In this document: piece by piece, positions 1,201-6,463 of the stretch
Layout: every line of letters starts with the position of its first letter
How positions within the stretch are numbered: the first letter of the stretch is position 1
From: an uncultured Bacteroidota bacterium
GTDB lineage: Bacteria; Bacteroidota; Bacteroidia; Chitinophagales; Chitinophagaceae
DNA length: 46,572 nucleotides
Direction: 5' to 3'
Assembly (NCBI GenBank): GCA_903904855.1
Contig: CAIVEH010000189.1
Location: 1-46,572 of the forward strand
Translations under genes and position numbers: made by a program
The notes under the pieces: generated by a model
Seen by the model: the letters and a program-made list of their open reading frames with translations, nothing else
Told to the model about the DNA's origin: nothing
Databases searched by the model: none

Positions 1201-3753
1201 TTATTCCTGGCTCACACTTGGCTCTTCAGCTATAGGTGCCGGATGATCAATTACAAAAGTAATCTTACCATCTGCTTCAATATAATCGGCAGTTACATTG
1301 TCTCCCGATTTAATACGGTGATTGAGAATCTCTTCTGCCAGCGGATCTTCCAGGTATTTCTGAATAGCCCGGTGCAATGGCCTTGCACCAAACTGCTGGT
1401 CGTAGCCCTTTTCAGCAATATACTTCTTGGCTGTGTCGGTAAGCTGCATAATGAAGCCCAGATTATTAAGGCGTTTCATTACATCCTTCATAATGATGTC
1501 TATGATCATTGCAATATGCTTCTCTTCCAGCGAATTGAATATTACCACATCATCAATCCTGTTCAGGAATTCGGGCGAGAAGGTGCGTTTAAGTGCCTTT
1601 TCTATAACTCCCCGGTTGTTTTCTTCCTGGCTTACAGCCTTGGCGGTTGTAGTAAACCCTACACCTGCACCAAAGTCTTTCAACTGGCGTGCACCAATGT
1701 TTGAGGTCATGATAATCAGGGTATTCTTGAAGTCAACCTTACGGCCCAGGCCATCGGTCAATTGCCCGTCATCAAGCACCTGCAGCAATATGTTGAAGAT
1801 ATCCGGATGCGCCTTTTCTATTTCATCGAGCAATACAACTGAATAAGGTTTGCGGCGTACTTTCTCAGTAAGTTGTCCGCCTTCCTCATAACCCACGTAT
1901 CCCGGAGGAGCGCCAATGAGTCGGCTCAACGAGAATTTCTCCATGTACTCACTCATATCCATCCTTATCAGCGCATCATCGCTGTCGAACATGTAGCGGG
2001 CCAAAGCACGTGCCAGTTCGGTTTTTCCTACACCTGTAGGGCCAAGGAATATAAACGAGCCAATTGGCTTGCGTGGGTCTTTAAGGCCTACACGGTTACG
2101 CTGTATAGCTTTTACTATTTTATTGATCGCCTCATCCTGCCCTACCACATTGGCACGCAGGTCTTCGTCCATGCGGCGCAGTTTGGCGCTTTCGGCTTCT
2201 ACCATGCGCATTACAGGTATGCCGGTCATCATGCTCACCACTTCTGCAATCGCCTCCTCATTTATAGGATACCTTTTATGCTTGGCTTCTTCTTCCCACT
2301 CTGCTTTGGCCTTTTCCAGTTCTTCACCCAGTCTTTTCTCACGGTCGCGGAGGGCAGCAGCCTCTTCAAAACGCTGGCTCTTTACTACCTTGTTTTTCTC
2401 AAGCTTTATATCCTCTATTTTCTTCTCAAGGTCAAGTATAGTTTGCGGAACATTAATGTTCTTCAGGTGCACTCTTGCTCCGGCTTCATCCAGCACATCT
2501 ATTGCCTTATCGGGCAGCAGGCGGTCGGTCATGTAGCGGTCGCTGAGCTTTACGCAGGCTTCAATAGCTTCAGCATCATACACCACATTATGGAAGTCTT
2601 CGTATTTCGAGCGAATGTTATTGAGGATGGTTATTGTTTCCTCAATGCTAGGTGGCTCAATCAATACCTTCTGGAAACGACGGTCGAGAGCGCCATCTTT
2701 CTCAATGTACTGACGGTATTCATCCAATGTAGATGCGCCAATGCACTGCAGGTCACCACGGGCCAGTGCAGGCTTGAAGATATTGGAAGCATCGAGCGAA
2801 CCAGATGCGCCACCGGCGCCCACAATAGTATGAATCTCATCAATAAACAGAATCACATCGCGGTTCTTTTCCAGCTCATTCATAATGGCTTTCATACGCT
2901 CTTCAAACTGGCCACGGTACTTTGTGCCGGCCACAAGCGCAGCCAGATCAAGGCTGATAACCCGCTTATCGAACAATACGCGCGATACTTTGCGCTGAAC
3001 AATGCGCAGTGCCAGGCCCTCAACTATAGCTGTTTTACCAACTCCGGGCTCACCTATAAGTATCGGATTGTTCTTTTTACGACGGGATAATATCTGCGAT
3101 ACGCGCTCAATCTCTTCATCGCGGCCCACGATAGGGTCAAGAGTGCCTAATTCGGCAAACTTGGTGATATCACGTCCGAAATTATCCAGTACAGGTGTCT
3201 TTGATTTGGAGGCTCCTGCTGCTGCGGGTTTACGTTGCTGCTGAAACTGTCTGCGTTCTTCATCATCGTCAAATTCCTCCGATCCCGGATCATTGTAATC
3301 AGCCGATGGTGCGCCACCCTGCAATATGCTCAGTTCGTTTTTAAACCGCTCATAATCAATTTCGTAGTGGTTCAGTATCTGGGTTGCCACATTTTCCTTA
3401 TTCTTCAATATTGAAAGCATAAGATGCTCCGTCTCCACTGTAGTGCTTTTCAGCGCTTTAGCCTCAAGTACAGTAATCCGTATCACTTTTTCGGCCTGCT
3501 TGGTAAGCGGAAGGCTGTTTATATTAGCTAGCGGCTTATTGTTTTTATCCTTGATGGCTACCTCCAGTTCTTTACGCAACTGAAAAAGGTCCACGTGCAT
3601 GGTTTGCAGTACTCTGAGGGCCATGCCATCGCCTTCGCGTATGAGGCCCAGTAATAAATGCTCAGTACCAATAAAATCATTTCCTAGTCTTAAGGCTTCC
3701 TCACGGCTATATGATATGATCTCTTTTACCTTCGGCGAGAAATTAGAATCCAT
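1201..3753 (-). CDS. clpC: ClpC, AAA+ unfoldase subunit of the Clp protease
   Basis: ClpC unfolds substrates and feeds them to ClpP in the cytoplasm. The 850-aa product has two N-terminal Clp-N repeats (residues about 5-145), an acidic/Gln-rich linker, AAA+ module D1 with Walker A GEPGVGKT (about 234-241) and Walker B ILFIDEIH, a coiled UVR-type middle segment (about 444-489), and module D2 with GPTGVGKT (about 571-578). A VGF tripeptide in D2, in AGVGFTT, matches the ClpP-docking loop, and with the short middle domain separates it from the disaggregase ClpB. I chose the ATG at 3753 ([11 protein letters not shown]) because homologues align from there; an in-frame ATG at 3786 also follows a purine-rich stretch and would add 11 residues. 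No clpP, ctsR or mcsAB lies nearby. An intrinsic terminator follows. Confidence 0.96.
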
Positions 3754-3951
3754 GTAATTCCTGTTTTTAAATAATAAAGTTAACATTTTCCTTCGTATTA
3801 TCCTATCGTCATTAATTATTGAAGCATCATCGCTTTATCTTTGGTCTTTAATTTTTCTGGTGTATTATTATATTCGGAGCAAAATGTTTGCCGGAAAAGT
3901 TATTTTAAGAACTGGTTAAAAATATTTCATAAATCGTTAACGCTTCTGAAT

Positions 3952-4326
3952 ATGGATTTCAAAATTGATACCAAAGATGCATTTACAACCATTATGCCAC
4001 TTGAAAAGGAAATAAGTGCTAAATTGACAGGCGGACTAAGGGTGAAACTGGAAGAAATGAGGCAAAGCGGCAGTAATAACTTTATTATTGATTTGCAGCA
4101 GTGTGAAGAAATTGATGCCAATGTCGTGCCTGAACTGATAACTTTGCACGAAGAAAGTTATGGGCTGGGGCAATCACTTGTATTCACAGAACTAAATGAT
4201 AAAATAATTTCGGCACTGAAAAAATCCGAATCTGACCTTTTGCTCAACATTGCCCCGAAAATGATTGAGGCAATTGATATTGTCAGCATGGAATTATTGG
4301 AACGCGAATTATTAGGTGAGGAATGA
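3952..4326 (+). CDS. STAS-domain protein (anti-sigma-factor-antagonist-like)
   Basis: This 124-aa protein has the STAS layout: a first strand, a central NFIIDLQQCEEIDANVVPEL segment, and following alternating helices and strands. In phosphorylatable anti-sigma antagonists the loop after the central strand reads D-S/T-S-G; here it is D55-A-N-V, so the usual phosphoacceptor serine is absent and regulation by an anti-sigma kinase is doubtful. A longer frame begins at 3841, but the ATG at 3952 fits the domain start. A TATCTTTG string at 3836-3843 resembles a -7 box, with a TTG only 14 nt further upstream. The last codons (GGTGAGGAATGA) end at the left edge of the inserted GxxExxY cassette. Originally the gene may have been translationally coupled to rnz (inference). 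Confidence 0.75.
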   Translation: MDFKIDTKDAFTTIMPLEKEISAKLTGGLRVKLEEMRQSGSNNFIIDLQQCEEIDANVVPELITLHEESYGLGQSLVFTELNDKIISALKKSESDLLLNIAPKMIEAIDIVSMELLERELLGEE

Positions 4327-4328
4327 TG

Positions 4329-4353
4329 TCTGAATCAGAATTTAGAGGATTTT
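4329..4353 (+). repeat. Left terminal inverted repeat of the GxxExxY cassette
   Basis: The repeat starts TCTGAATCAGAATTTAGAGG and begins two bases after the STAS stop codon. Its reverse complement matches 4799-4823 at 24 of 25 positions. Confidence 0.9.
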
Positions 4354-4393
4354 AAAATTTACTGAATTAATTGCAGTAGACGAAAGAAAAAGA

Positions 4394-4810
4394 ATGATAA
4401 AAGATGATTTAACGTATAAAATAGTCGGATGTGCAATGAAGGTGAATTGTACTCTGGGAAATGGCTTTAAGGAAGTTATTTACCAAAGGTGTCTTGCTAT
4501 TGAAATGAATAAAGAAGGATTGAATTTTGGCCGTGAGATAGAACAATCAATATTTTATCAAGGTGAAAACGTAGGAACCAGAAGAGCGGACTTTGTAGTT
4601 GAGAATAGAGTTATAGTAGAATTTAAGGCTTTAATTAACCTCGAAGATGTTCACCTGGCCCAGGCTAAGAATTATGTAGTAGCCTATGATTTTCCAATCG
4701 GGCTCTTAATAAATTTCGGAGCCGTTAGCCTCCAGCATAAATTGATTTTTAATCCTAAATACAATACAGTCCTCACTAAAAATAATTCAGAAAATTCAAA
4801 AATCCTGTAA
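4394..4810 (+). CDS. GxxExxY protein (PD-(D/E)XK nuclease superfamily)
   Basis: This 138-aa protein has the defining motif G24-F-K-E27-V-I-Y30 in an N-terminal helical region, then R-A-D66-F and V-E76-F-K78, which match the D...ExK catalytic signature of the PD-(D/E)XK nuclease fold. The family is small, widespread and of unknown function. The fold suggests DNA or RNA cleavage, but that is inference. A purine-rich stretch (GAAAGAAAAAG) precedes the ATG. The TAA stop (4808-4810) lies inside the right inverted repeat, so gene and repeats form one compact unit. The gene sits between STAS and rnz and interrupts what looks like an operon. The C-terminal tail is low complexity (Lys, Asn, Ser). No partner gene is visible in the cassette. 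Confidence 0.88.
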   Translation: MIKDDLTYKIVGCAMKVNCTLGNGFKEVIYQRCLAIEMNKEGLNFGREIEQSIFYQGENVGTRRADFVVENRVIVEFKALINLEDVHLAQAKNYVVAYDFPIGLLINFGAVSLQHKLIFNPKYNTVLTKNNSENSKIL

Positions 4811-4823
4811 ATTCTGATTCAGA
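4799..4823 (-). repeat. Right terminal inverted repeat of the GxxExxY cassette
   Basis: This is the reverse-complement partner of 4329-4353, with one mismatch (G at 4807 where C would pair perfectly). It contains the stop codon of the GxxExxY gene and ends four bases before the rnz start codon, so the rnz leader is partly made of cassette sequence. Confidence 0.9.
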
Positions 4824-4826
4824 AGA

Positions 4827-5729
4827 ATGAAAGTAACTATACTAGGTAATAATTCGGCCCTTCCTGCTTTTGGCAGGCACCCATCAGCACAGGCGGTTAC
4901 TGTGTATGGCGAAGTGATTTTGATTGATTGCGGTGAGGGCACCCAGATCCAGATGCAGCGGTATGGTTTAAAGTGGCGTAATGTGCATCACATTTATATA
5001 AGCCACCTGCATGGGGATCATTATTTCGGTCTTCCCGGCCTGCTCAACAGTATGAGCCTGCTGGGCCGTACTGCTCCGCTGCACCTTCATGCCCCTGCTG
5101 AGTTAAAACCTATTATGGATGCAATCCTTGAAGTTGCAGATACCGTTTTATGTTACCCTTTTTATTTTCATCCGCTGCCCGATGAATCAGCCATGATAAC
5201 AGATGAACCCTCCTTCTCTGTAACCTGCTTCCCGGTTGAGCATCGTATTAAATGCCATGGCTTCCTGGTGGAACGGAAAACAAGAGGCAGAAAGATAGTT
5301 CCTGAAAAATGTAACGAATATGAAATTCCCGCTGCTTATTACGACTATCTGAAGAAAGGGGATGACTATGAACGCAAGGACGGATTTCTGGTAAAGAATG
5401 AATGGGTAACGGAAGAAGGTCCTTCTGTGAAGCGGTATGCCTATTGTGCTGATACATTATTTACAGATAGCTTTCTGCATGTAATTAAAGGGGTTGACAC
5501 CATTTATCATGAGTGTACTTACCTGGAAGCCGACAAAGCCAAAGCCGAAGCTCGCTACCACAGCACTTCAGCTCAGGCTGCTGAGGTTGCTAAGATGGCT
5601 GGCGCAAAACAATTGTTGCTGGGCCATTTCTCTTCAAAATATAAAGAACTCGATGCTTTCAGGGAAGAGGCTAGTGCAATTTTCCCGAATTCGCTTGTGA
5701 GTATTGAAGGGACAGTTTATGAGGTGTAA
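4827..5729 (+). CDS. rnz: Ribonuclease Z (tRNA 3' endonuclease)
   Basis: RNase Z is a cytoplasmic zinc endonuclease that removes the 3' trailer of tRNA precursors lacking an encoded CCA. At 300 aa it has the usual short (elaC-type) length. It carries the metallo-beta-lactamase signature H60-L-H62-G-D64-H65 followed by YFGLPGLL, the upstream strand LIDCGEGTQ, an exosite-like inserted region around residues 155-190, and late metal-binding stretches YCADT, YHECTYLE and LLLGHFSSKY. The ATG at 4827 follows AGAAGA, a weak ribosome-binding sequence; the better site (GGTGAGGA) is left upstream of the GxxExxY cassette. The gene ends 9 bp before a convergent HEPN gene. Confidence 0.96.
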   Translation: MKVTILGNNSALPAFGRHPSAQAVTVYGEVILIDCGEGTQIQMQRYGLKWRNVHHIYISHLHGDHYFGLPGLLNSMSLLGRTAPLHLHAPAELKPIMDAILEVADTVLCYPFYFHPLPDESAMITDEPSFSVTCFPVEHRIKCHGFLVERKTRGRKIVPEKCNEYEIPAAYYDYLKKGDDYERKDGFLVKNEWVTEEGPSVKRYAYCADTLFTDSFLHVIKGVDTIYHECTYLEADKAKAEARYHSTSAQAAEVAKMAGAKQLLLGHFSSKYKELDAFREEASAIFPNSLVSIEGTVYEV

Positions 5730-5738
5730 CAACTTATA

Positions 5739-6134
5739 CTATTGTCTGGTAAGCAACTCCTGAACCTGATTTATGAAAATTTTTGCAGGCAATATCAACT
5801 CTGTCACATCACTTTCTACATAATCAATGAAATCTTCATAATCACCTTTATGCCTCATAGTATAGAGTTTTGTATAAAAGCTACCTTTATCCTCTGAAAT
5901 AAGACCTTTATTTACAAAATGTAAACCAAGCATTTTAATTGCTCCGGCATGTGTTCTTGTACTAATATCACTATTGATAAGCAAAGCGCTGACAGCATAA
6001 AAGCAAGCATAATACAAACGGTTAACTCCAATATTCCATAACCTGTTCTGCACAAGTACTTCTACCTCGGCAAGGGTTTTCATTGCATTCGTCATCCTGT
6101 ATTGAACAAGGTCCGATTTTTGTTCGCTAGTCAT
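5739..6134 (-). CDS. HEPN-domain protein, putative toxin partner
   Basis: This 131-aa all-helical protein has the HEPN-type pattern NRLYYACFYAVSALL, a later RTHAGAIKMLG segment and a TMRHKGDYEDF stretch, typical of HEPN proteins paired with minimal nucleotidyltransferases. HEPN toxins are generally RNases with an R-x4-6-H active site. I find no R and H with that spacing here, so RNase activity is uncertain and it may be a non-catalytic or differently wired member. Its start overlaps the upstream nucleotidyltransferase gene by 4 bp (ATGA), a sign of translational coupling. Both genes look AT-rich compared with the neighbouring housekeeping genes, as expected for an accessory cassette. Confidence 0.82.
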   Translation of the reverse strand: MTSEQKSDLVQYRMTNAMKTLAEVEVLVQNRLWNIGVNRLYYACFYAVSALLINSDISTRTHAGAIKMLGLHFVNKGLISEDKGSFYTKLYTMRHKGDYEDFIDYVESDVTELILPAKIFINQVQELLTRQ

Positions 6135-6463
6135 AATACTCTTCCATCCTTATTTACATTTTCATAAAATGGAGTAACTCTGTGATTAGTCCAGGCATCC
6201 TTCGTATAAACCATCGGGCTGATAATCATGCCGGTTTTATACCCTAAACTGAATAAAGGATAAGTTATCTTATCTTCATCATCATGTGTAATTTTGTCTT
6301 TATCCAAAAGTATTAGTAAATCAATATCTGAATCTTCATGGTAATCGCCCCTTGCATAAGAACCATACAAAATAAGCGTAGCGCCTGGTGCATTCTGGGC
6401 TACCGAACTTTTTATAAGTTGCAATATATTGGCCTTATCGTTCACTCTACAAAAATACATCAT
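6131..6463 (-). CDS. Minimal nucleotidyltransferase (MNT), putative antitoxin
   Basis: This 110-aa protein has the polymerase-beta-type signature G34-S-Y-A-R-G with the metal-binding pair D46-I-D48 in SDIDLLI. Characterised MNT antitoxins of this type silence HEPN toxins by transferring AMP to them; that role is inferred here from the pairing. The gene is upstream of and overlaps the HEPN gene, in the order nucleotidyltransferase then HEPN. Two adjacent ATGs (6463 and 6460) are possible starts, and a GTG at 6445 would remove six residues. No convincing ribosome-binding site is visible. The promoter would lie in the 100-bp gap shared with the divergent flavin reductase gene. Confidence 0.85.
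   Translation of the reverse strand: MMYFCRVNDKANILQLIKSSVAQNAPGATLILYGSYARGDYHEDSDIDLLILLDKDKITHDDEDKITYPLFSLGYKTGMIISPMVYTKDAWTNHRVTPFYENVNKDGRVL

Follow-up and report, generated by a model that had tools for sequence, protein, structure and literature searches.

A unit of about 0.5 kb, made of a single GxxExxY gene between two inverted repeats (arms), lies between a gene described as STAS-like and rnz, the ribonuclease Z gene, in an uncultured member of the Chitinophagaceae (Bacteroidota). The window analysed here is the whole stretch of 46,572 nucleotides that contains it (contig CAIVEH010000189.1 of assembly GCA_903904855.1). The unit is a mobile-type cassette, patchily distributed and equipped with its own repeat family. 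By analogy, it is best read as a partnership between a repeat family and a PD-(D/E)XK nuclease, comparable to that of repetitive extragenic palindromes (REPs) and REP-associated tyrosine transposases (RAYTs). A probability of about 0.5 is given to this reading, because the action of the protein on the arms is something that we infer. The cassette itself, proposed in a first-pass annotation made from the letters of the window, is borne out by cassette-free junctions in relatives and by the presence of the arm repeat at other loci.

Junctions with and without the cassette

STAS and rnz are not always separated by the GxxExxY gene, as cassette-free pairs exist in relatives. A search of 99 genomes, that of the window among them, detected rnz in 96, and 30 rnz loci were read; the genomes and loci are cited below by working numbers (G and L). 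A STAS-rnz junction was readable at 17 of them, the window among these, and at the remaining 13 the motif used found no STAS-like end ahead of rnz. Six junctions are occupied (G000, G026, G028, G006, G020 and G005; the cassette ORF, or open reading frame, of G026 carries one stop codon, and G005 is counted here with a contig that ends before STAS). Six are empty (G033, G004, G001, G016, G013, G027), with a gap of -4 to 9 nt between STAS and rnz. Three hold cassette remnants (G011, G017, G032) and two another insert (G008, G022).

The best rnz tree, built from 24 loci, requires five changes of state between occupied-or-remnant and empty. Sister pairs of opposite state are G005/G016 (99/98), G006/G033 (89/84) and G020/G001 (88/80), the first being the only one on a starred branch. 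Two independent arrivals at rnz, which a first tree had suggested, found no support in the approximately unbiased (AU) test, where a single clade of the five rnz-site copies was not rejected (p 0.81). The history of this site may involve repeated arrival, and one old arrival followed by repeated clean loss is a possible course as well.

At the thiC-thiD junction, 25 loci were scanned and 22 were readable. By reading, seven are empty, four keep an arm remnant (G013, G002, G005, G018), two hold a cassette (G001, G006) and nine another insert, and five further genomes carry a cassette there (G000, G004, G016, G019, G024). This junction apparently receives inserts of various kinds. For moaA-moeA, five of the 19 scanned loci were readable by motifs: G016 and G004 with a cassette, G001 with an arm remnant, G008 with another short insert and G013 empty. 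In the thiC-thiD remnants (L247, L249, L254, L264), the right arm appears by reading to be translated in frame as the N-terminus of ThiD. Other inserts stand in this junction at L240, L244, L259 and L263. A large third insert, whose long ORF of about 272 codons is presumably KilA-N-like judging from its motifs, lacks strong inverted ends and was rejected as a part of the cassette system.

The anatomy given by the first-pass annotation for the window cassette was recovered in full. The inverted arms at 4329-4353 and 4799-4823 are identical at 24 of 25 positions, a copy of GAATGA stands on each side, and the stop codon of the GxxExxY ORF (4808-4810) falls inside the right arm. Deletion of 4327-4830 yields GGTGAGGAATGAAAGTA, a clean join of STAS to rnz. 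A repeat search extends the arms to 49 nt (4329-4377 and 4775-4823), with 42 of 49 positions matching (86%), and the pair reaches a score of 36, where the highest of 100 shuffles is 21. Because the outer end reads TGTCTGAATC from 4327 onwards, 4327-4377 is the preferred placement of the left arm. If overlap with the arm is allowed, the flanking repeat grows to GAGGAATGA / GAAGAATGA, alike at 8 of 9 bases. In a search of the window with an arm model, for which both window arms were themselves among the 60 building sequences, the two arms were found at E 2.7e-10 and 6.8e-10 and the next match at E 0.013.

The GxxExxY ORF of 138 aa lies above the curated cut-offs of both PF13366 (E 2.5e-35; 121.8 bits against 22) and TIGR04256 (E 7.6e-36; 123 bits against 35). 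Pfam and NCBIfam scans returned these two families alone for the protein and no transposase match, DDE or HUH. The YhgA-like/Rpn families PF12784 and PF04754 (the latter accession is the one which we take to belong there) gave no match in the Pfam scan, where PF13366 stood alone. The upstream ORF did not match any Pfam or NCBIfam model at E 0.001. The features are collected in Table 1.

Table 1. Positions of the cassette and of its neighbours in the window.
Feature	Position	Strand	Remark
Upstream STAS-like gene (name from the first-pass annotation; no family match)	3841..4326	+	Stop in GAATGA immediately before the cassette
Left GAATGA direct-repeat copy (up to 8/9 bases as GAGGAATGA)	4321..4326	+	
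Left arm, class A: TGTCTGAATC, then RATT units mostly 8-9 nt apart	4327..4377	+	
GxxExxY gene, PD-(D/E)XK fold; D66, E76, K78 invariant in 55 aligned sequences	4394..4810	+	
Right arm, inverted copy; holds the GxxExxY stop codon	4775..4823	-	
Right GAATGA copy; contains the rnz start codon ATG (4827)	4825..4830	+	
rnz, ribonuclease Z	4827..5729	+	Overlaps the STAS-like stop or lies at most 9 nt from it in six empty-site relatives

The assembly that contains the window (271 contigs, 97% complete) has four GxxExxY genes. The second, L007, located between thiC and thiD as identified from sequence, shares with the window cassette an arm family, TGTCTGAA..GATT. The third (L006) sits among several copies of an arm of this family, and the fourth (L005) has arms of another class, ACCACAAAGG..ACACTAA. 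Directly downstream of rnz, on the opposite strand (5739-6463, -), a HEPN-domain gene stands beside a nucleotidyltransferase-domain gene, as a HEPN/MNT-like pair. By reading, a similar gene seems to adjoin rnz in G026.

The arm family and the GxxExxY protein

The arm repeat recurs at other loci, both with GxxExxY genes and alone. GxxExxY genes are present in 68 of the 99 genomes (window's own included), and 93 loci were taken from relatives, being a part of the genomic places listed, with the window's genus first. Among the 91 that were testable, 75 have an arm score of at least 16 and 64 of at least 20. The 99th percentile of the shuffles was 15 and their maximum 20, and arm pairs taken across loci reached 19 (95%) and 29 (99%); these high cross-locus scores are attributed to arm sequence shared between loci. 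A scan of named genomes, with patterns from the window's protein that favour close class-A relatives, found 83 loci and kept 80. Of the 79 tested, 54 score at least 16 and 44 at least 20.

The class-A consensus is TGTCTGAATCAGGATTTACAGGATT.., with RATT units mostly 8-9 nt apart, and arms of this class occur in Bacteroidota, Ignavibacteria, Spirochaetes, Desulfobacterota and Gammaproteobacteria. Proteins 64-81% identical to that of the window were found by the named scan in these five groups and in Cyanobacteria, which points to transfer of GxxExxY between phyla. A clear arm pair was not found at five Crocosphaera and Cyanothece loci. In a tree of 166 proteins, a deep split places 20 of 20 class-B rows on one side and 99 of 103 class-A rows on the opposite one; the classes were set by a motif rule, and the tree rests on few columns and leaves many forks open. 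Arm similarity tracks protein identity across different sites (Mantel r 0.73, p 0.001; 113 loci, 6251 pairs). Within nine hand-picked groups of orthologous sites (28 elements, windows chosen blind to arms), arms agreed more closely within an element than with the arms of an orthologue in 31 of 42 pairs (permutation test, p about 1e-4). Arms therefore tend to be kept matched, presumably through selection or conversion.

Arms away from the gene were sought with a model built from 60 sequences: 100 arms were extracted, 70 drawn at random and ten dropped by eye, nine of other spacing or subtype and one duplicate. At E 0.05 or better, class-A matches number at least 55 in the window genome, 66 in G004, 38 in G017, 13 in G007 and 8 in G014. 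The counts are lower bounds, with 150 candidates scored per genome and arms beside genes included. The window genome and G004 have four PF13366 genes each, and the other three genomes have none. Over 35 genomes, arm count rises with gene count (Spearman 0.55).

An inverted partner within 900 nt was absent for 60 of 72 arms, present for 10 and at an edge for 2; these arms were the best-scoring or hand-picked ones away from genes, so that the solo share is no unbiased rate. A count of pairs without a gene was not used, because the motif filter missed the arms of known GxxExxY cassettes (L314, L320). Gene-less paired arms were seen in one array (L328:622-1392, G000:C63), in which the final 59 bp of what reads as an hsdR-like gene recur five times with mostly silent differences. 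The copies are separated by gene-less arm elements of two subtypes, and the first two elements have both arms. Comparison of 49 arms with other loci found 31 that share the arm alone, 16 that lie within longer repeats and 2 that are unmatched. In G007, the loci L329 and L330 are arrays of arm-bearing units, with copies 70-99% and 76-89% alike.

The protein itself is predicted to be a nuclease of the PD-(D/E)XK class. The core residues named in the first-pass annotation (D66, E76, K78) proved invariant in the 55 sequences of the alignment, made up of the window's protein together with those from 54 of the 80 named loci. A structure model (predicted local distance difference test 84.6, predicted template modelling score 0.77) was compared by Foldseek, whose best eight matches range from E 4.6e-5 to 1e-3, including Cas4 (4ic1, E 4.6e-5) and lambda exonuclease (E 8e-4). 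Cas4 SSO0001 and lambda-type exonucleases appear nearest, with a template modelling score of about 0.5 and a high root-mean-square deviation, and the fold class alone is safe to take from the model. A sequence search of solved structures gave no match up to E 1. Defence and phage annotation yielded weak matches alone, namely a Cas4b profile at E 0.005 and, at E 0.02, a single PHROG whose function is unknown. A role as phage cargo was rejected with no match in 50,697 phage records; among plasmid records, 8 of 72,556 match, all at less than 60% identity. Between orthologous sites, dN is 0.06-0.20 in the pairs listed, dS is mostly saturated, and the group medians of computable dN/dS are 0.03-0.08.

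No paper on the function of GxxExxY was found in one open-access library. In the excerpts available there, the literature that names GxxExxY is silent on cassettes, and the arm words matched fly papers alone. Judging from this one library, cassettes of this kind are not in print.

Placement, movement and competing explanations

Cassettes often run in the same direction as their neighbours, with a start codon next to the right arm. Among 109 cassettes with an arm score of at least 18, 34 have a co-directional ATG opening a frame of at least 70 codons at -12..+10 nt from the right end, and 1 has a divergent one at that distance from the left end. Where neighbours within 80 nt were considered, both are co-directional in 43 of 109 and both antisense in 6. 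In these counts, as in those of duplications and long repeats, orthologous copies are taken separately.

The 6-bp target duplication proposed from the two GAATGA copies is not supported as a general feature. At 54 anchored ends, exact repeats of 2-7 bp occur about as often as chance predicts, apart from slightly more 3- to 5-bp repeats at single offsets (for 4 bp, 4 loci against 0.8 expected). A longer flush direct repeat is equally not a common property, as 4 of 126 cassettes beat all 400 cross-locus controls, and in one of these four (L224) the repeat itself is arm sequence. The clearest examples match at 36 of 38 nt (L212, within the apparent 3' end of hsdS) and 32 of 34 nt (L206), and their differences in apparent coding sequence are synonymous. 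The flanking copies at L328, L206 and L212 look like different alleles. Such copies would allow clean loss by recombination.

In the proposed mechanism, the GxxExxY protein would bind the inverted arms of roughly 9-nt RATT units as DNA and nick or cut at their ends, an enzyme of the Cas4, RecB or lambda-exonuclease type taking the place of HUH. Gene and arms together, and solo arms in trans, would spread rarely, in the manner of RAYTs and REPs. The insertions that survive would be those leaving both neighbours whole, co-directional and between a stop and a start codon, and by reading of the junctions the arms could even supply such codons. Loss would proceed without the cassette enzyme, by recombination or slipped replication between flanking direct repeats with help from the inverted arms, and would restore the junction. 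Precise excision of Tn5 and Tn10 proceeds by direct-repeat loss of this kind, aided by their inverted ends. The nuclease may drive movement or excision of the cassette, as the first-pass annotation had suggested.

Several observations weigh against the partnership of nuclease and arms. Uniform target duplication was not found at the 54 anchored ends. Among the matches listed in an all-against-all comparison, no whole cassettes at unrelated sites exceed about 78% DNA identity, and therefore no recent copying is seen. The co-divergence of arms and protein is expected from plain linkage as well, and in two of the nine orthologous groups (g3, g6) the arms of an element fit each other no better than those of the orthologue. 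G007, G014 and G017 carry arms with no PF13366 match in the genome. Longer repeats contain 16 of the 49 solo arms compared, including every one of the six from G007 and G014, so that a part of the arms may be dispersed by a different route. Where the gene has long occupied its site, the purifying selection on it suggests a lasting role outside transposition, which fits poorly with a transposase that is wholly selfish and stays in place.

The strongest single argument against the nuclease as mover comes from the S23 genes (PF05635), which were found in 57 of 60 genomes and whose cassettes have the same plan without a nuclease fold. An arm score of at least 16 was obtained at 25 of 30 S23 loci, with a sharp 7-nt period. 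A co-directional ATG is found at -12..+10 nt from the right end in 17 of 24 cases, and a divergent one at that distance from the left end in 0 of 24. None of the 24 S23 cassettes beats all cross-locus controls for a flush direct repeat. At L128-L157, the S23 genes, which encode four-helix bundles, occupy cassettes at operon junctions, and the arms there have the 7-nt period.

In a passenger explanation, the arms would be REP-like or resemble miniature inverted-repeat transposable elements (MITEs), moved by host or trans activity, with GxxExxY as cargo kept for a host or addiction function such as nucleic-acid defence or repair, and S23 as cargo of a sister repeat. This explanation, which is somewhat unlikely but the foremost of the alternatives, draws on the arms of gene-less genomes, the gene-less pairs of L328, the S23 plan and placement, and purifying selection at fixed sites. 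It accounts poorly for the tie of arm class to gene family and clade and for the increase of arm count with gene count. If one mover served all cassettes, a single type of arm should be preferred, but S23 arms have a different period.

An element acting at the level of RNA is an improbable alternative. Its transcript hairpin would be trimmed by RNase III, as in an S23 intervening sequence (IVS), harmlessly since the neighbours would lie on separate messages. The first-pass annotation had suggested a long RNA hairpin; the window RNA does fold stably (z -5.16, with 0 of 100 shuffles as good), but any such inverted repeat would be expected to do so, and the idea that the hairpin is under selection found no support. 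Were the sense-strand RNA under selection, G-U mismatches should exceed A-C, and 136 against 131 were counted in the arms of 75 GxxExxY loci (95% interval of the G-U share 0.45-0.57). The S23 loci gave 41 against 32, which is not significant, so that RNA pairing shows no sign of being kept. Co-directional placement in operons agrees with an RNA element, and so does the Coxiella IVS, which is near the S23 cassettes in plan (PMC4990558, excerpt). Solo arms, however, cannot form a hairpin, and Rfam gave no match up to E 1 in 3700-5800.

It is very improbable, and already disfavoured through the unrelated insertion sites, that the unit is a normal resident gene whose ends carry a regulatory inverted repeat and which some relatives have lost by chance. 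Purifying selection and the single clade of rnz copies, with one old arrival possible, agree with this view, but arms of the same kind surround GxxExxY genes at many unrelated sites in several phyla, remain as remnants at junctions and occur elsewhere in genomes.

A broader proposal is that GxxExxY and S23 define a class of operon-junction cassettes, with short-repeat arms (about 9 nt and 7 nt, respectively) landing just before start codons. The GxxExxY nuclease, neither DDE nor HUH, would recognise the arms and move both the unit and solo arms, and the S23 IVS of rRNA would form the other branch. As a whole this proposal is tentative and rather unlikely. GxxExxY cassettes may belong to a little-described kind of mobile DNA. 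Recognition of GxxExxY as the core of repeat-bounded cassettes with a matching genomic repeat makes the arms a concrete candidate substrate. Action of the nuclease on them would add to the chemistries by which bacteria move minimal DNA; without such action, the cassettes would be an example of genes fitted into operon junctions with neighbours unbroken. The S23 likeness ties two poorly understood gene families to rRNA intervening sequences.

Comparison with known systems

RAYT genes are flanked by REPs, and a gene flanked by repeats that are also scattered in the genome is likewise what the GxxExxY arms present. In REPtrons, transposase groups have co-evolved with their genome-scattered repeats (PMC8266576, excerpt). 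TnpA-REP is an HUH enzyme acting on palindromic hairpin REPs (PMC8266576, excerpt), whereas the GxxExxY cassette combines a PD-(D/E)XK protein with arms that are not palindromic and consist of RATT units. The GTAG and CGTC tags named for REP repeats (PMC3733652, excerpt) do not occur in the arm consensus. DDE insertion sequences differ from the cassette, which has no transposase match and no uniform duplication at the 54 ends. For a MITE, the feature looked for was paired terminal repeats around copies that lack a gene, and such arm pairs were seen in one array, L328.

Short inverted-repeat elements tied to a PD-(D/E)XK gene have a parallel in the hupL MITEs of Ca. Thiomargarita nelsonii, which, as their authors suggest, may derive from an element with a PD-(D/E)XK_2 gene (PF12784, YhgA-like), a putative transposase (PMC4853749, excerpt). 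These MITEs differ in belonging with PF12784 and not PF13366, in their 19-bp inverted and 10-bp direct repeats, and in the position of the described copy within a gene (PMC4853749, excerpt). With Cas4, lambda exonuclease and RecB-type nucleases, the GxxExxY protein shares the predicted fold and the weak Cas4b profile match; it differs in having 138 aa and in being the sole gene of a cassette.

The S23 (23S_rRNA_IVP) IVS differs in its four-helix-bundle protein, in the location of the classic IVS in rRNA, and in a period of 7 against about 9 for GxxExxY; the window cassette, by comparison, lies between protein genes and encodes PF13366. Alike are the length, near 0.4 kb, the inverted repeats at the termini, the single small ORF and the short tandem repeats ahead of it, and the Coxiella IVS illustrates this plan with 428 nt, a 28-bp terminal stem, heptamer repeats, one ORF and an RNase III cut (PMC4990558, excerpt).

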